NCBI RefSeq assembly: GCF_002924445.1
Contig: NZ_PIGG01000069.1
Span: forward strand, 1 to 64,000
Direction: 5' to 3'
Length of the DNA stretch: 64,000 nucleotides
Origin: Minwuia thermotolerans
GTDB lineage: Bacteria; Pseudomonadota; Alphaproteobacteria; Minwuiales; Minwuiaceae
Position numbers and translations under genes: made by a program. Shown here one piece after another: positions 55,245-63,553 of this stretch. The notes beneath the pieces were generated by a model, which did not search any database, was not told where the DNA came from, and saw only the letters and a list, made by a program, of their open reading frames with translations. The first letter of the stretch is position 1. Every line of letters begins with the position of its first letter.

Positions 55245-56530
55245 TCACCGACCGGTCTGCAATGGCTTTCGCGCATCAGAAGCGACAGCAGGAAGCCAAT
55301 GCCGGACGCCACCGGGATGATCACCAGCGCCGTGTCGTAGTTGGCCGGCGTATAGACCGGCACCCCGCCGTCGGCGGACACCGTACCATCCCAGACCCAG
55401 TCGAGCACGATACCGATGATCGGCTGCAGCAGCGCGCCGCCGCCGACGAAGGCGCCATTGACGAAACCGGTCACGGCGCCGCCGATGGAGGGCGGCGAAA
55501 GCTCCCGCCCCAGAGCGATGACGAGGATCATGGAGCCGCCGAACAGGCCGACCAGGAACAGAAGCACCTGATAGACCGGCAACGGCAGCGTCGGGGCGTA
55601 CAGCATGGTCGCCCAGAGCACCAGCGAAAGGAGAGAAGCGAATATCAGCGGCAGCTTGCGGCGGCGGAAATAGTCCGAGAGGAAGCCGCCGAGGGGGCCG
55701 CCGATGGCGAAACCGATGGTCATCAGGCTGGCGCTGAATCCGGCTGTGTCGCGCTCGATGCCATAGACCAGCATCATGTGCGGCACCCCCCAGAGCAGGC
55801 CGTAGGCCAGGAAAGGGCCCGAGATGACGAGGCCATAGATCGCAAGCACCCAGTTGTGGCCCAGACTCATGGCCTGCACCAGCGAGCGTCCGAGGCTCTG
55901 GTTGCCCGTCCGCTGCACGGGCCTGCCATCGGGCCGGTCGCGGACAACCAGCCAGATCAGCGCCGCCAGCACGACCCCCCAGACCGCCGTCACCAGCAGG
56001 GGATCGCGCCAGCCATAGGATTCGACCAGCGCGCCGAGCGGGCCCTGCGCCAGGAAGCCGCCGACCATGGCATAACCCATGGTCATGCCGGAAAAGAGTC
56101 CGAAGCGGTGCGGCGGCTGCCAGTGGGCAGCCAGCGTGAGCGCCGAAATGAAGCCCACGGCGGAGCCCGCGCCGATCGCCAGGCGGCCCGCATAGGCGAC
56201 CCAGATATTGTCCGCCAGGGCGAAGGTCGCCACGCCGAGCCCCGCGATCTCCATCCCGGAAGCAAGCAGCTTCTGGGGTCCCCAGCGGTCCAGCAGCAGA
56301 CCCACGGGAAGCTGCAGCAAGGCGTAGATGTAGAGATAGAGCGCGGCCAGGTTGCCCACGACGCCCGCGCCCGCGGCGAAGGCGCCCATCAACTGGTCGA
56401 CCATGACGCTGGGGGCCGCCCGTTCGAAGAAGGCGTAGAAGAAGGCGTTGGCGCCCAGGAACCAGACGATCCAGGCGCGCAGGCCGCCAACGCGCGCCGA
56501 GGCGCTTTCGTCCATCGTGCCTGTCGTCAT
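55241..56530 (-). CDS. MFS transporter
   Basis: A 429-residue 12-helix major facilitator. The signatures are LLLDRWGPQKLLASGMEIAG in the first half (motif A: GLLLDRWG) and GGPLGGFLSDYFRRRKLPLI in the second. GRLAIGAGSAVGFISALTLAAHW is the substrate-pathway helix. It resembles the hexuronate/sugar-phosphate branch (VGNLAALYLYIYALLQLPVG), but no substrate can be named. It overlaps the LLM gene upstream and the ChaC-like gene downstream (ATGA each), so all three are translated together. Confidence 0.87.
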   Translation of the reverse strand: MTTGTMDESASARVGGLRAWIVWFLGANAFFYAFFERAAPSVMVDQLMGAFAAGAGVVGNLAALYLYIYALLQLPVGLLLDRWGPQKLLASGMEIAGLGVATFALADNIWVAYAGRLAIGAGSAVGFISALTLAAHWQPPHRFGLFSGMTMGYAMVGGFLAQGPLGALVESYGWRDPLLVTAVWGVVLAALIWLVVRDRPDGRPVQRTGNQSLGRSLVQAMSLGHNWVLAIYGLVISGPFLAYGLLWGVPHMMLVYGIERDTAGFSASLMTIGFAIGGPLGGFLSDYFRRRKLPLIFASLLSLVLWATMLYAPTLPLPVYQVLLFLVGLFGGSMILVIALGRELSPPSIGGAVTGFVNGAFVGGGALLQPIIGIVLDWVWDGTVSADGGVPVYTPANYDTALVIIPVASGIGFLLSLLMRESHCRPVGE

Positions 56531-57543
56531 GCCGCCGCCCGCGCCGTCAGACCGAACGCCTCGGCCAGCAGTTCATAGGAACGCACGCGGGCGTCGAAGT
56601 CGTGGCTGATGGTGACGATGACAAGCTCATCGGTGCCGTATCGTTCGGCGAACGCCATGAGCTGCGAACGCACCGCCGCGGCGTCGCCGGCGATCGAACG
56701 GCCGCGATTGGCCTCCAGGATCGCCAGATCATGGGGACCATAGTCGTAGGCGTCGGCTTCCTCCGGCGTCGGGAACGGCGCCAGTTCCCCCTTCATCAGG
56801 CGGACCAGCCACAGATTGCGGGACTTGACCAGGTACTGCGCCTGTTCGTCGGTGTCTGCGGCCAGCGCGAAGACGCCGACCGAGGTCATCGGCGCGGGGC
56901 AGTAGTCGGAGGGACGGAAGGCCTGCCGGTAGGCCGCCGTCACCTGATCGCCGCCGCGCGGGGCGATGAAATGGGCGAAAGAAAACGGCAGACCGAAATG
57001 CGCGGCATAGGAGGCGCTGTCCGCCGACGATCCCAGCAGCCAGACCTCCGGCGCGGTCGGCCCCTTCGGCTGCGCCTCGATGCCGTAGAAGGGATGATCG
57101 GGCTCCAGCGCGTCATTGAGGAAGCCGATCGTGTCCAGCACCTGCCGGGGGTAATAGTCGACCGGTGCGGATCCCGGCCCCGCGCGCAGCACCTGCATGG
57201 TTCTCTGATCACTCCCCGGCGCGCGGCCGAGGCCGAGATCGATGCGGCCCGGATGCAGGGTCTCCAGCATTCGGAAGCACTCCGCCACCTTCAGCGCCGA
57301 GTAATGGTTCAGCATCACCCCGCCGGAGCCGACACGGATATGGCGCGTCGCCTGGGCAATGTGGCCGATCAGGATCTCGGGCGCGGCGCCGGCAAGCCCG
57401 GCGGAGGCATGATGCTCGGCCAGCCAGTACCGGTGATAGCCGAGCCGGTCGCAAACCCTTGCGAGTTCGACGCTTTCCCGCACGGCGTCCGCTGGTGTGC
57501 AGCCCGCGCGGATGGGACTCTGATCGAGTACGCTCAGGCGCAA
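56527..57543 (-). CDS. LLM-class flavin oxidoreductase (MsnO8-like)
   Basis: A 338-residue luciferase-like protein of the MsnO8 subgroup, recognisable from LSVLDQSPIRAGCTPADAVRESVELA at the start, HRYWLAEHHASAGLAGAAPEILIG and GRIDLGLGRAPGSDQRT. It should use reduced FMN. It is the first gene of the LLM-MFS-ChaC run. A DUF924 gene is divergent, 77 bases away. The substrate is unknown; glutathione conjugates are a possibility, given the ChaC neighbour. Confidence 0.88.
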   Translation of the reverse strand: MRLSVLDQSPIRAGCTPADAVRESVELARVCDRLGYHRYWLAEHHASAGLAGAAPEILIGHIAQATRHIRVGSGGVMLNHYSALKVAECFRMLETLHPGRIDLGLGRAPGSDQRTMQVLRAGPGSAPVDYYPRQVLDTIGFLNDALEPDHPFYGIEAQPKGPTAPEVWLLGSSADSASYAAHFGLPFSFAHFIAPRGGDQVTAAYRQAFRPSDYCPAPMTSVGVFALAADTDEQAQYLVKSRNLWLVRLMKGELAPFPTPEEADAYDYGPHDLAILEANRGRSIAGDAAAVRSQLMAFAERYGTDELVIVTISHDFDARVRSYELLAEAFGLTARAAA

Positions 57544-57620
57544 GGCTGGTCTCTCCAGGTCGATGATCTACATTCCGGCCCTGTCATTTCACGCTCGCAG
57601 ATAACGCGGAGGGGTTGGGG

Positions 57621-58181
57621 ATGGAAGACCCGGATATTGCAAGGCTGCTCGGCTTCTGGTTCGGGGAACTGGAGCCGAAGGACTACTGGACCCGGAACGA
57701 TGCGCTGGACGAGCGCATCCGGCGCGAGTTCGGCGCGCTGTACGAAAGGGCCTCAGCCGGCGGGCTGGACCACTGGCAGGAGACGCCGGAGGGGGCGCTG
57801 GCGCTCGTGATCGCATTGGACCAGTTGCCCCGCAACATGTTCCGCGGCGAACCGCGCGCCTTCGCTACCGACGAGAAGGCGCTGGACGTGGCGGAAGGGG
57901 CGATCGAACGCGGCTTTGACCGGCGCCTGCCGAACGACCGGTGCATGTTCCTCTACATGCCGTTCGAACATTCCGAGGATCTGTCGGTACAGGAGCGCTC
58001 GCTGGAAATATTCCGCCGCCTCGGCCTGACCGACGAGGTCTACGGCTTCGTCGTCCGCCACCACGAGATCGTCGCACGCTTCGGACGCTTCCCGCACCGG
58101 AACCGCATTCTGGGCCGGGAAACCACGCCGGAGGAAGCCGCCTTCCTGGAGGAGCCGAACAGCTCCTTCGGCGGCTACTAG
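57621..58181 (+). CDS. DUF924 family protein
   Basis: A 186-residue all-helical DUF924 protein. The signature runs RLLGFWFGELEPKDYW, ALALVIALDQLPRNMFRG, FATDEKALDVAEGAIERG and FLYMPFEHSEDLSVQERS, with the terminal HHEIVARFGRFPHRNRILGR. The fold is TPR-like; no biochemical role is established. The ATG at 57621 follows GCGGAGGGGTTGGGG. The last four bases overlap the converging permease gene. Confidence 0.9.
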   Translation: MEDPDIARLLGFWFGELEPKDYWTRNDALDERIRREFGALYERASAGGLDHWQETPEGALALVIALDQLPRNMFRGEPRAFATDEKALDVAEGAIERGFDRRLPNDRCMFLYMPFEHSEDLSVQERSLEIFRRLGLTDEVYGFVVRHHEIVARFGRFPHRNRILGRETTPEEAAFLEEPNSSFGGY

Positions 58182-59851
58182 AGCTGCCGCACGGATGTCG
58201 CGCTGCGGATCATGCGGTTCATCAGGATGACTGGGCCGATGCCGGCGAGCACGATGATCAGCGCAGGCAGCGCCGCCTGTTCCAGCAGTTCGTCCTTGGC
58301 GTACTGGTAGACGAAGGTCGCCAGGGTCTCGAAGTTGAACGGCCGCAGCAGCAGCGTCATCGGCAGTTCCTTCATCACGTCGACAAAGACCAGCAGGCCG
58401 GCCGCCATCACCGAGCTGCGGATGAAGGGCAGCACCACCTGCACGACGCCGCCGGAGAAGCTGCGGCCCAGGACGCGGCTGGCATTCAGCAGGTTGGGCG
58501 GCATGCGGCCGACTCCCGTGACCAGGGCGCCATAGCCCACCGCCTGGAAGCGCACCAGACAGGCGAGCAGCACCAGGGCGATGGTGCCCGTCAGATACCA
58601 GCCGCCAGGCAGGCCCAGACCCTCGACGAAGACGCTCGCGATGACATCGTCCACCGCCCCCGCGAAGGTGAGTACGCCGATGGCGAGAATGGTGCCGGGA
58701 AAGGCGTAGCCGGTCGCCGCCAGCCCGGCCAGGATCCTGAGCGGGCGATTGCCCCGCCAGGTGACGGTGACCGCAAGAATGGCTGAGCACAGCAGCACCA
58801 GCCCTGCGACCGCCGCCGCGACCCAGACCGAGTTCAGGGCCACGGCGAAGACCGTGGCGTAGTCGTCCAGCGAATGGCCGCGCAACACGAAACCGGTCAG
58901 AATCGCAGCGGGAAAGACGAAGCCCAGCGTCACCGGTATCAGACAGGCCACGGCGCAGCCGACGGCCCGCCAGCCGGTCAGCCGCCGGGGCCTCGGCGGA
59001 GTCACCCGCCGCCCCGAATCCGCATAGCGCCGCCGCGAGCGCGCATAGAGTTCCATCACCAGAAGTGTGACGACGAAAAGCACGGCGACGATGGAGATCT
59101 GCGCCGCACCTGGCAGGCTGTTCATGCCCAGCCAGACATTGAAGATGCCGAGCGTGAGCGTCTCCAGCGCGAAATACTCGACCGTGCCGAAGTCGGAGAT
59201 CGTCTCCATCAGCACCAGCGCCAGCCCAGCCGCCATCGCCGGCCGCGCCATGGGCAAGGCGACGGTGAGGAAGACTTTGCGGTCATGCGCACGGGCCACG
59301 TCGTAGAGGGAGTCCGGCGTCATCCGGAAGGCGATCCGCGTCATCATGTAGACGTAAGGATAGAGCGTCGCGCCCATCACCAGGATGGCGCCCCCCATGG
59401 AGCGGATCTCGGGGAACCAGTATTCACGCGACGTCCGCCAGCCGAACAGGTCCCTGAGCACGCCCTGCACCGGCCCGGCGTATTCCAGGAAGTCCGTATA
59501 GGTGTAGGCGACGATGTAGGCGGGCACCGCCGCCGGCAGCAGCAGCGCCCATTCCAGGACACGGCGTCCCGGAAAGCTGTAATGGGTGACGAACCAGGCG
59601 GCCCCCGCGCCGAAGGCCAGCGCCACCGCGCCGACCCCGGTCATCAGGATGATGGTATTGGCGACATAGGTCGGCAGCACCGTCTGGAGCAGGTGCGGCC
59701 AGAGACCTTCGCTGTCCTGCGCGGCAGCGAAGAACACGGCCAGGATCGGACCCAGAAGGACTCCCGCCAGCAGGATCACCAGCAGGGTCGAAGGGCGCAG
59801 CAGCCACCCGCCTGCACGCGGCGGCGCGGCGGCTGCGTCGGCCGCTACCAT
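58178..59851 (-). CDS. ferric iron ABC transporter permease (FbpB type)
   Basis: A 557-residue permease with about 12 membrane segments in two homologous halves, as in FbpB/SfuB. Each half carries the ATPase-contact loop: DVARAHDRKVFLTVALPMARPA in the first and NASRVLGRSFSGGVVQVVLPFIRSS in the second. The start ATG at 59851 overlaps the end of the binding-protein frame by seven bases. The N-terminus is Ala-rich before the first helix. No ATP-binding subunit lies in this operon, so one must be encoded elsewhere. It would carry ferric iron delivered by the binding domain upstream. Confidence 0.9.
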   Translation of the reverse strand: MVAADAAAAPPRAGGWLLRPSTLLVILLAGVLLGPILAVFFAAAQDSEGLWPHLLQTVLPTYVANTIILMTGVGAVALAFGAGAAWFVTHYSFPGRRVLEWALLLPAAVPAYIVAYTYTDFLEYAGPVQGVLRDLFGWRTSREYWFPEIRSMGGAILVMGATLYPYVYMMTRIAFRMTPDSLYDVARAHDRKVFLTVALPMARPAMAAGLALVLMETISDFGTVEYFALETLTLGIFNVWLGMNSLPGAAQISIVAVLFVVTLLVMELYARSRRRYADSGRRVTPPRPRRLTGWRAVGCAVACLIPVTLGFVFPAAILTGFVLRGHSLDDYATVFAVALNSVWVAAAVAGLVLLCSAILAVTVTWRGNRPLRILAGLAATGYAFPGTILAIGVLTFAGAVDDVIASVFVEGLGLPGGWYLTGTIALVLLACLVRFQAVGYGALVTGVGRMPPNLLNASRVLGRSFSGGVVQVVLPFIRSSVMAAGLLVFVDVMKELPMTLLLRPFNFETLATFVYQYAKDELLEQAALPALIIVLAGIGPVILMNRMIRSATSVRQL

Positions 59852-60915
59852 CCGACCCTGTCGATGATCTTCTGGGCTTCCGGCGCCAGCTCCGCGATGC
59901 GGTAGATGGGCAGTTCGTCGGCCTTGAATGCGCCCCACTCCGCCAGCGACGCCGGGGTCTCGACCGCCGGGTTCACCGGATACTCGGTATTGACCTCGGC
60001 ATAGAGCCGCTGCGCCTCGGGGCTGGTCAGGAATTCGAGGAAGCGGACGGCGTCGGCCTTGTTGTCGGCGTGTTTCGCGACACCCCCGCCGGAGATGTTG
60101 ACGTGGCTGCCGCGGTCCTCCTGGTTGGTGAAGACAAGCTGCACCGATTCCGCCCATTCACGATGCTCGGGCGTCTCGGAGGACTTCAGCTTGCCATAGT
60201 AATAGTGGTTGATGATGGCGACGTCGCACTCGCCTTCGTGAATCGCCTTGATCTGGGCGCGGTCGTTCCCCTGCGGACGGCGCGCCAGATTGGCGACCAG
60301 GCCCTCGGCCCATGCCTCGGCCTTGTCGACGCCGTGCGCGGCGATCAATGAGGCCAGCAGGGCGCGGTTGTAGACGTGGCTGCCGGGCCGGGAGCAGATC
60401 CGGCCCTCCCATTTCGGGTCGGCGAGATCCTCGATCCGGGTGATGGCGCCCGGCTCGACCCGCTCCCTGGAAACCGCGACCACCCGCGTGCGGATGGACA
60501 GGCCGAACCAGCGGCCCTCCGGATCGCGCAGATGCGCCGGTATGTTCTCTTCCAGCACGTCGGAATCGACCTTCGCCAGCAGGTCCTTGTCCGCGTAGAC
60601 GCCCAGCCGGCCGATATCGACCGTCAGCACCAGGTCGGCGGGGCTGCGTTCGCCCTCCACCAGAAGACGCTGGGCCAGGCCCTTGGAGGCGTAGACGACG
60701 TTCACTTTCACATCCGTCTGCTCCGTGAACGCGTCGATGAAGGGCTGAATCAGGAAGGGCTGGCGGTGGGAGTAGATGTCCAGTTCCCCTTCCGCTGCCG
60801 AAAGATCGCCGGCGGCCAGCGTGGCGGCGGCGAGAACGCCGGCGCCAAGCGCGAAAGCACGGACGCGCGCGGCCGCGGGCCGGCCGCCATGACGGACAGC
60901 ATTGAACGCTTGCAT
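59845..60915 (-). CDS. ferric iron-binding periplasmic protein, internal start within the fusion
   Basis: Starting at the ATG 60915, preceded by GGGGAGGACATTC, the same frame gives a 356-residue binding protein. It has a complete signal peptide (RAFALGAGVLAAATLAAGDLSAA-EG, cut about residue 41). The mature part is FbpA-like: LDIYSHRQPFLIQPFIDAF, VYASKGLAQRLLVEG, GSHVYNRALLASLI, and the iron-ligand tyrosines in IINHYYYGKLKS. It ends overlapping the permease gene. I expect most free binding protein to come from this start, whether or not the fusion is also made. Confidence 0.85.
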   Translation of the reverse strand: MQAFNAVRHGGRPAAARVRAFALGAGVLAAATLAAGDLSAAEGELDIYSHRQPFLIQPFIDAFTEQTDVKVNVVYASKGLAQRLLVEGERSPADLVLTVDIGRLGVYADKDLLAKVDSDVLEENIPAHLRDPEGRWFGLSIRTRVVAVSRERVEPGAITRIEDLADPKWEGRICSRPGSHVYNRALLASLIAAHGVDKAEAWAEGLVANLARRPQGNDRAQIKAIHEGECDVAIINHYYYGKLKSSETPEHREWAESVQLVFTNQEDRGSHVNISGGGVAKHADNKADAVRFLEFLTSPEAQRLYAEVNTEYPVNPAVETPASLAEWGAFKADELPIYRIAELAPEAQKIIDRVGW

Positions 60916-61902
60916 GAATGTCCTCCCCAGGAATCGGATGGGCGGTACGCGCCGGAAAGCCTGTGCGGCAAGCCGCACCGGTCCGACATAGAGGTTGTAG
61001 AGCGAGTTGGCGTCGTGGCCCGGCGCCGCAGCCACACCGAAGCGCAGTTCCTCGCCGCGCTGCGAGACGACCAGACTGCCGCCGATCCAGTCCCAGACCG
61101 CCAGCGCGGCGCCGAAGTTCCGGTCGTGATGACGCGCGGCAAGGGAATGATGAATCTGGTGCTGCGCCGGCGAGATCAGGAAGCGTTCCAGCCGCCGGCC
61201 ATAGCGGATCGGCACATGCGAATGGCGCAGGTTCGAACCGGCGACATTGAAGGCGAAGACCAGCGCATTGGCGCCAAGCACGGTGACCAGATCGACGCGG
61301 CTATCGACGAAGAAGACGAAACCAGCGATCACCAGGCCCTGCACGGCGGCGCTGCGCAGGGCGAAGAGGACGCCCTCGACCGGATGCGTGCGGTAGACGG
61401 TCAGCGGCGTCAGCACTTCGGCGGTGTGGTGGACCGCGTGGAACGGCCAGAGCAGCGGCGAACGGTGCATCATCCGGTGTACGGCATAGCGCGAGAAGTC
61501 GTCGGCGAGGAACAGCACGACGGAGAACAGCGCCGCCACCGCCCAGGCCGGCATCTCCGGCGAGGGCGACGCCGGCATCCCTGCCCAGCCGTGCAGCCAG
61601 AGATAGAGCGCCGAGGCGACGGTCATGTGCGTGATCAGCCGCGGCGCGATCAGCATCATCGCCGCGCGATTGATGAAGACGATCAGATAGTCCGCGCGCG
61701 CCGAGCGCGAGAACCAGATGCGTCGGTCGAAGGCGCGGACCAGCCCTGCGCGCAGGCCCTGACGCCAGCCGCCGGCGGCCAGAACGGACGCGGCCAGCGC
61801 GATGACGAGCGCGCTGGCCAGGTAGCCGAGGAAGACCCGCTTCTGCGGATTGACGAACGCATCCGCAATGGAGCCCAGATAGTCGATCAGGATCGCCAGC
61901 AT
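59845..61902 (-). CDS. in-frame fusion: fatty acid hydroxylase/sterol desaturase + ferric-binding protein
   Basis: One open frame of 685 codons. Residues 1 to about 310 are a membrane di-iron hydroxylase of the sterol desaturase family. They have several membrane helices and the His clusters H142RMMH146, H155AVHH159, H227SH229 and H248QIHH252. Residues 330-685 are an FbpA/FutA-type periplasmic iron-binding protein (see the entry for 59845-60915). There is no stop between them; the linker is LAAQAFRRVPPIRFLGRTF. The ATG at 61902 follows GAGGGGG. The first half should be in the inner membrane with its di-iron site in the cytoplasm, and the second would be exported through its own signal sequence. 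A lost stop codon or a genuine polyprotein are both possible. Confidence 0.75.
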   Translation of the reverse strand: MLAILIDYLGSIADAFVNPQKRVFLGYLASALVIALAASVLAAGGWRQGLRAGLVRAFDRRIWFSRSARADYLIVFINRAAMMLIAPRLITHMTVASALYLWLHGWAGMPASPSPEMPAWAVAALFSVVLFLADDFSRYAVHRMMHRSPLLWPFHAVHHTAEVLTPLTVYRTHPVEGVLFALRSAAVQGLVIAGFVFFVDSRVDLVTVLGANALVFAFNVAGSNLRHSHVPIRYGRRLERFLISPAQHQIHHSLAARHHDRNFGAALAVWDWIGGSLVVSQRGEELRFGVAAAPGHDANSLYNLYVGPVRLAAQAFRRVPPIRFLGRTFMQAFNAVRHGGRPAAARVRAFALGAGVLAAATLAAGDLSAAEGELDIYSHRQPFLIQPFIDAFTEQTDVKVNVVYASKGLAQRLLVEGERSPADLVLTVDIGRLGVYADKDLLAKVDSDVLEENIPAHLRDPEGRWFGLSIRTRVVAVSRERVEPGAITRIEDLADPKWEGRICSRPGSHVYNRALLASLIAAHGVDKAEAWAEGLVANLARRPQGNDRAQIKAIHEGECDVAIINHYYYGKLKSSETPEHREWAESVQLVFTNQEDRGSHVNISGGGVAKHADNKADAVRFLEFLTSPEAQRLYAEVNTEYPVNPAVETPASLAEWGAFKADELPIYRIAELAPEAQKIIDRVGW

Positions 61903-61971
61903 GGCCCCCTCGTCGAGCGCCGGTGCCGCGGGGCGCGGGCGGGCCGGACCGCCGCGTCCCGCGTTCCGCGT

Positions 61972-63360
61972 TCAGTCGTTCTCGGCGCTGGCGCCATTGC
62001 CGAGCTGGCCGGCCAGCGACTTGATGTCCGCCATCATGTCGTTGCTGCGCGCCTCGACGCCGAACTCGTCGACCATCAGCTTCTGGATCTTCAGCATGTG
62101 CAGCATGTACTCGCCCATCTCCGGCGCCTGGCCCTTGAGGTAGTTGCCGTCGCTGTCGACGTCGACGACCTGGCTCGAGTTCAGCAGCCACGGGCCGAAA
62201 CCGATCAGGCGGTTCATCCGTACGGCGGTTTCGCCCAGGTTCTCGCGGCCGGTCTGCAGCGCCAGCGAGAAACCCTTCAGTTCGCCCCAGTGCTTGACGT
62301 AGTTGCCGAAGGCCTCGTCGGTCTCGCCCTTGGCGTCCATGATGATCTTCAGCTTGCCCAGATCCTTGTAGACCGAGCCGGCATATTTGAAGACGGCCTC
62401 GGCCAGCACCTTCGACCACAGGTCATCGATGGTCGCGGCATGGGCCTTCAACTCGGTGCGCTGGGCGTCGGTCAGCTTCTCGCCGCCAGCGGCGGTGATC
62501 AGCTTCCGTCCCTCCAGGAACGCACCGACGATGCCGTGCAGGTACTCGGTCTTGCCGCCCTTGTCGAAACCGGCGGCGTAATAGGCCGGCCCGAAGGTCA
62601 TTTCGGTGCGGAGGTCGACCTTGCCGTCGCCATTGTGGTCGGCGGCGGCCAGCGCCTCCGGATTCTGCTTGGCGATGTCGTAGACCTGCGCCGGCGTCAG
62701 GTTCATGGCGTGGGCGGGCGCGCCGAAATAGCCGAAGGCCTCGTCCCAGCTGTGTTCCTTGCCGGTATAGGCCGCGCCATCGCTGTAGGGCTTGTCGTTC
62801 GGCTTCTTGTCCGCCTCCAGGTTCTCGTCGAGATAGCCGTCGACGGCCTGGTTGTAGTTCATCGCGCCCATGATGAACTTGGAGATCAGCTGCGCGTAGT
62901 CGTAGCCGTTGGTCAGATCCACGCCGTTGCCGCCGGCGGCCTTGCCGATCCAGAAGCTGACGACCTCCGGACCGGTCAGCGCATTGGGCCAGCCCAGGAT
63001 GGCGCCCTTGTAGGTCTTGCCGGCGATGTTCTTGTCGCCGCTGATTTCGTCGACGGTCGACTGCAGGATCGGGAAACCGTCCTTCGAGGCCGGCGCGATG
63101 ATCGCGCGGCCCGGCCCCTTGCCTTCGTAGTAGCTCAGCATCTCCTCGGCGCTGGCGCCTTTGCCGGCCAGCTTCTTCAGCGAGTCGTGCAGCACGTTGC
63201 GCGCCGCCTGCCCGGTGTAGGCCACCGAATGCGTCTTGTCGCCCGAGTACCCCTTCACCGTTACCGGGAAGCCGGCATAGACGCCCTCCTCGGCCTGCGA
63301 CGCCGTCGTCAGCGCGGCAATGGCAATAGCAGCGGCGGCGATTTTCGAAGCGTGCTTCAT
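61972..63360 (-). CDS. DUF4856 exported protein of an iron operon
   Basis: A 462-residue secreted or periplasmic protein with a signal peptide (about residues 1-23, ending TTASQA-EEG). DUF4856 hallmarks are SVAYTGQAARNVLHDSLKKL, GYDYAQLISKFIMGAMNYNQ and AAYTGKEHSWDEAFGYFG. An EF-hand-like loop ADHNGDGKVDL suggests calcium binding. The function of DUF4856 is not established; homologues resemble imelysin-type iron-regulated proteins. GGGGAAGGATCC precedes the ATG. A Fur-like box lies 75 bases upstream, and the iron-uptake genes follow 69 bases downstream on the same strand. Confidence 0.85.
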   Translation of the reverse strand: MKHASKIAAAAIAIAALTTASQAEEGVYAGFPVTVKGYSGDKTHSVAYTGQAARNVLHDSLKKLAGKGASAEEMLSYYEGKGPGRAIIAPASKDGFPILQSTVDEISGDKNIAGKTYKGAILGWPNALTGPEVVSFWIGKAAGGNGVDLTNGYDYAQLISKFIMGAMNYNQAVDGYLDENLEADKKPNDKPYSDGAAYTGKEHSWDEAFGYFGAPAHAMNLTPAQVYDIAKQNPEALAAADHNGDGKVDLRTEMTFGPAYYAAGFDKGGKTEYLHGIVGAFLEGRKLITAAGGEKLTDAQRTELKAHAATIDDLWSKVLAEAVFKYAGSVYKDLGKLKIIMDAKGETDEAFGNYVKHWGELKGFSLALQTGRENLGETAVRMNRLIGFGPWLLNSSQVVDVDSDGNYLKGQAPEMGEYMLHMLKIQKLMVDEFGVEARSNDMMADIKSLAGQLGNGASAEND

Positions 63361-63453: not shown

Positions 63454-63553
63454 GTCAGAATGCCGCATCGCGAATCAGCCATGCGGCCGGTTCATGGGGG
63501 CGGCCGGACATTCCGGCTTGGCGAGCAGCCCGTTGCCGCTACAGTCCCCGCCC

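Follow-up and report, generated by a model that had tools for sequence, protein, structure and literature searches.

FbcH, the precursor of cytochrome b and cytochrome c1 in Bradyrhizobium, is a polyprotein which is cleaved by signal peptidase. In enzymes of the FA_hydroxylase superfamily the di-iron site and the C-terminus are cytoplasmic, and ferric-binding proteins of the FutA/FbpA group are normally encoded by free-standing genes. Cas11b is the product of an internal in-frame start in one open reading frame (PMC11899642). Pelagibacter ubique possesses SfuABC, a ferric ABC transporter of a marine alphaproteobacterium, whose binding protein SfuC is increased 27-fold under iron limitation (PMC2864753).

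The locus described here lies in the window (the whole 64,000-nucleotide stretch of Minwuia thermotolerans DNA that was analysed) and encodes a hydroxylase and a ferric substrate-binding protein (SBP) in one frame. As in FbcH, a polytopic membrane protein is followed in the same frame by a protein that faces the periplasm, and the two are predicted to be parted at the signal sequence of the latter; FbcH, however, joins two subunits of one complex, whereas the present frame joins an enzyme to an ABC binding protein and is set apart from FbcH by a conserved internal start with a ribosome-binding site. The likeness to Cas11b-type genes (PMC11899642) is that a second product would arise from an in-frame internal start, although in the present case that product would be an entire exported protein that carries a signal peptide of its own. 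SfuABC is likewise a ferric ABC transporter, but the list of induced genes in that study contains neither a hydroxylase nor DUF4856 beside sfuABC (PMC2864753). A literature search found no description of the fusion or of the “DUF4856 – hydroxylase – ferric ABC” operon to which it belongs, and no paper on DUF4856. The reading that we consider probable, on the basis of sequence comparison and structural modelling, is that a nested pair of genes shares one frame here, within a conserved ferric-iron ABC operon, and would yield a cleaved polyprotein together with free SBP made from the internal start. Its features are as follows.

59845..61902, minus strand: fused open reading frame of 685 codons plus TAG, with its start ATG at 61902 and no internal stop
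61905..61911, minus strand: likely Shine-Dalgarno of the hydroxylase start, GAGGGGG (from the sequence; kept in G006, a second species of the genus)
60916..61902, minus strand: hydroxylase part, residues 1-329, FA_hydroxylase / sterol desaturase superfamily (Pfam, invariant His, hydrophobic stretches)
60921..60928, minus strand: internal Shine-Dalgarno for the binding protein, GGGGAGGA (from the sequence and from duplex energy compared with recoding)
60913..60915, minus strand: internal ATG, codon 330 (an equivalent ATG is kept across fused lineages)
60793..60915, minus strand: SBP signal peptide (residues 330-370), with cleavage predicted close to LSA/SAA
59848..60792, minus strand: mature ferric-binding protein (SBP) of the FutA/FbpA type (match to 1q35; fold)
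58178..59851, minus strand: ABC permease of the same operon (BPD_transp_1; start ATG overlapping the 3' end of the SBP gene; conserved order)
61972..63360, minus strand: first gene in the conserved operon, encoding a DUF4856 protein that has a signal peptide (Pfam; kept in nearly all relatives); the longest open reading frame begins at 63468, and the likely ATG is at 63360

A preliminary description of this DNA had reported an uninterrupted frame of 685 codons that holds a hydroxylase with four His clusters (residues 142-252) and an FbpA-like protein with its own Shine-Dalgarno (GGGGAGG), its own ATG at 60915 and a full signal peptide. Each of these elements was found again: both domains are matched by Pfam, ten histidines in the clusters are invariant in relatives, and FA_hydroxylase is followed in the frame by a complete SBP with its own ribosome-binding site, ATG and signal peptide. 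The AlphaFold model of the fused protein consists of two folded domains, a low-confidence linker (322-344) and a helix (341-363).

The first half matches FA_hydroxylase (PF04116) at residues 128-275 with 80.9 bits against a Pfam cut-off of 31, which places it in the superfamily, and the invariant histidines are H142, H146, H155, H158, H159, H173, H227, H248, H251 and H252. A di-iron site and a hydroxylase function are predicted for it from the Pfam match and these invariant ligands. It resembles other members of PF04116 in its His motifs and membrane helices, and differs in being placed in a ferric ABC operon. The nearest NCBIfam model is that of OlsE, the ornithine lipid hydroxylase (NF052566), and identity with OlsE was rejected because the score of 45.3 bits is far under the equivalog cut-off of 475.

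In the second half, SBP_bac_6/8 matches lie within residues 389-661 (Pfam), and the match to 1q35 (E 4e-90, residues 43-354 of 356) extends over the whole FutA/FbpA domain. The modelled SBP superimposes on FbpA/FutA structures with TM scores of 0.92-0.96, up to 0.96 for FutA1, and in structure alignments it is 43-47% identical to 1q35, 6g7n and 2pt1, with which it shares the fold and a conserved Tyr pair. The candidate iron ligands Y511, Y567 and Y568 are invariant in fused copies and align with Tyr in 1q35. By sequence and model the protein belongs to the FutA/FbpA group, and Fe(III) binding is predicted. Its signal peptide shows an n-region rich in Arg, followed by a hydrophobic core (residues 349-367) and LSA/SAA as the cleavage motif; plausible options for a signal-peptidase cut, with small residues at -3/-1, are kept in every fused copy.

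The preliminary description had not mentioned the surrounding operon, in which DUF4856 lies upstream of the fused gene and the ABC permease downstream; the order DUF4856 – hydroxylase – ferric SBP – permease is conserved. An ABC ATPase adjoins the operon in several relatives, but in the window no ATPase was seen next to the operon, so a shared one may be encoded at another place in the genome. Downstream of the permease (56527-58181) are a DUF924-like gene on the opposite strand and a luciferase-like monooxygenase gene. Two SAR11-type loci (L104, L140) carry the DUF4856 – hydroxylase – SBP – permease operon with a convergent ABC ATPase, apparently distinct from the described sfuABC locus, and in two further genomes (G399, locus L237; G430, locus L238) the SBP and permease of the operon type occur without hydroxylase or DUF4856 upstream, the SBP there seeming to have its own start. 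The DUF4856 model is confident (pLDDT 87, pTM 0.85) and had no fold match in the PDB (best E 0.15, TM <0.2), so assignment to a known fold was rejected; judged from the model, it is possibly a fold without a solved member. The protein contains an EF-hand-like stretch with invariant D277, D281, G282 and E289.

The fusion is not peculiar to the window. Among 60 relatives searched, G006, whose genome is a single contig, carries the whole fusion at 96% identity, and codons 313-342 around the junction are identical to those of the window but for one. A related binding protein is present in five further species of the genus, all of which lack a hydroxylase of this kind. According to the preliminary description, two genes with a stop before the ATG in close relatives would have told against its reading; this is not what was observed, since the one hydroxylase-bearing congener is fused and unfused gene pairs are confined to lineages further away. 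When the class was searched with the hydroxylase half, close homologues turned up in other families, three of them with open frames of 681-704 codons, and the same fusion occurs at 42-61% identity in many other lineages. Scanning the contigs of named genomes with the fused protein as query gave no match, whereas a scan with the hydroxylase alignment gave 80 more loci. The 91 homologous loci comprise 24 that are fused, 31 with a separate SBP in frame +1 (most of them with an overlap of 11 or 20 nt), 7 with the SBP in frame +2, and 5 with the SBP in the same frame behind a stop; the rest are without such a neighbour.

Order-level searches in two orders added further fused copies, for a total of 35 complete fused open reading frames, and fused copies include those of Nisaea denitrificans, Defluviicoccus and Rhodospirillaceae. 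Two gammaproteobacterial MAGs carry a fusion with a more distant binding protein. The genes are separate in the named copies from SAR11 and SAR116, and in many cases they overlap out of frame, by 11 or 20 nt. Of 398 genomes sampled across the phylum, only the genome of the window and the Nisaea-like G114 showed the long frame, so the fusion is recurrent rather than common; a scan of viral contigs gave one distant hydroxylase only. One genome (G460) carries both states, fused (L214) and separate (L243), and in one draft genome a copy of the fused gene that contains two in-frame TGA codons (L241, contig C51 of G442) is perhaps decayed or misassembled. Two fused copies bear Bacteroidota titles (L178, Mesoflavibacter sp. 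ih5; L181, Flavobacteriales TMED123). These titles or bins are probably wrong; both genes group with alphaproteobacterial copies, and the tail of L178 is that of G428, a genome of the window's class.

The feature of the junction that is most strictly conserved is the nested start. In the window, TGGGGAGGAC (60929-60920) precedes the internal ATG (60915-60913), with six bases between GGGGAGG and ATG, and the duplex energy of the internal Shine-Dalgarno is -11.3 (p=0.005 against synonymous recoding). The fused copies that are <75% identical to each other, drawn from the 35 complete frames, represent 20 lineages. In 20/20 of these an ATG is found 29-47 codons upstream of the mature SBP, compared with 6.4 expected from Met frequencies (product of chances 2e-11). 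The mean Shine-Dalgarno energy at the internal start is -4.9, compared with -1.8 at other in-frame Met codons of the hydroxylase gene (p=1e-5), and over the fused copies the internal signal is stronger than in synonymous recodings (combined p=0.0016), although a few lineages (L106, L122, L166, L186) show it only weakly. The Met column is 80% conserved and the surrounding linker is not; in most lineages this Met is exactly 19 codons past an invariant Pro (+22 in the window). Such a pattern is to be expected under selection for an internal start. The locus thus has the conserved internal start codon and ribosome-binding site of an in-frame nested gene, initiation at which is predicted from these signals, and since the nested start is the strictest-conserved feature of the linker, two starts on one frame are the likely design.

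The pairs compared show no indels in the linker itself, whose dN/dS is 0.35 (0.14 and 0.12 for the two domains); the linker is therefore translated and under mild constraint. This does not extend to a claim of selection against a stop in the linker, because in relatives without the fusion the hydroxylase tails usually run at least as long (median 28-32 codons past the same Pro, beyond position 19), so that a stop ahead of the ATG would in any case leave a shorter tail. The absence of a stop may therefore just reflect tails that run past this point, and the fusion product need not be selected. Nor is the fixed +19 spacing taken as proof of a working fusion, because unfused SAR11 loci likewise keep a constant spacing among themselves.

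These observations bear on the strongest alternative, in which the overlap is merely inherited: an SBP start inside the hydroxylase tail would have come by chance to coincide in frame with the enzyme, read-through would be tolerated, nearly all functional SBP would come from the internal start, and the fusion would have no role. In unfused relatives the SBP does start inside the hydroxylase gene in another frame, with the overlaps of 11 or 20 nt noted above, and the tails of SBP-less hydroxylases extend at least as far as the internal ATG would lie. The sister loci L179 and L186 hold both states with the same ATGAAAATGAA start, which is in frame +1 at one locus and in frame 0 at the other; this is consistent with a net one-base shift, and about six changes between fused and separate states are needed on the hydroxylase tree (a quick tree with some long branches, so that exact counts are soft). 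Against this, one large region of the tree contains 17 fused loci, 6 without SBP and none separate, and so shows no reversion to separate genes. Furthermore, because there is no stop before the SBP, every hydroxylase in fused lineages would be made with an SBP attached; no route to an unattached enzyme is apparent there, yet the enzyme keeps its metal ligands invariant, as well as its place in the iron-uptake operon. We regard inheritance without a role as possible but on the whole unlikely.

A stronger claim than the nested pair is that the fused frame is itself selected, with an obligatory polyprotein that pairs each hydroxylase with one exported SBP, an internal start that tops up the SBP, and a new iron-uptake module in which the hydroxylase modifies a lipid or chelator for iron uptake. 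This is a tentative proposal, to which we give somewhat less credence than to inheritance.

For the nested pair with a cleaved polyprotein, we infer translation from both starts, followed by cleavage and export. Ribosomes starting at 61902 would find no stop before the SBP and would produce a hydroxylase-SBP chain, in which the SBP signal peptide would form one extra membrane segment that crosses in the normal direction. Signal peptidase would cut behind the signal peptide and release the SBP to the periplasm, a likely outcome by analogy with FbcH, with which the locus shares an uninterrupted frame containing an internal signal peptide and cut site. Ribosomes starting at the internal ATG (60915) would make additional free SBP, so that the SBP could exceed the enzyme; the 27-fold rise of SfuC (PMC2864753) fits a need for such an excess.

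The preliminary description had suggested that one locus could supply both a tethered polyprotein and a free periplasmic protein. The two starts are likely, given the ATG and Shine-Dalgarno evidence above, but a lasting membrane tether, in which the signal peptide stays uncut and the anchored SBP passes iron to the enzyme, is very unlikely. The conserved continuous frame would suit it, but plausible cut motifs are kept in every fused copy and both domains occur apart in other lineages. Topology also argues against it: about six hydrophobic stretches occur in the hydroxylase, each His group following an even-numbered stretch, and hydropathy, the model and knowledge of the superfamily predict a cytoplasmic di-iron site and a periplasmic SBP. 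The predicted placement on opposite sides of the membrane makes a permanent iron-handing tether unlikely, and the proposal of a di-iron enzyme physically linked to its iron supplier accordingly finds no support. The simplest alternative, an assembly or sequencing error or a recently lost stop codon, can be dismissed as having a negligible chance, because the same frame occurs in an independent single-contig genome of a second species and in 20 divergent lineages.

The locus is thus a real, conserved, nested in-frame fusion. It would represent a widely conserved bacterial case in which two proteins destined for two cell compartments are encoded in one frame with two starts, a gene that annotation would log as one enzyme or as a chimera, and it draws attention to an operon of DUF4856, hydroxylase and ferric ABC genes in SAR11, SAR116 and their relatives.
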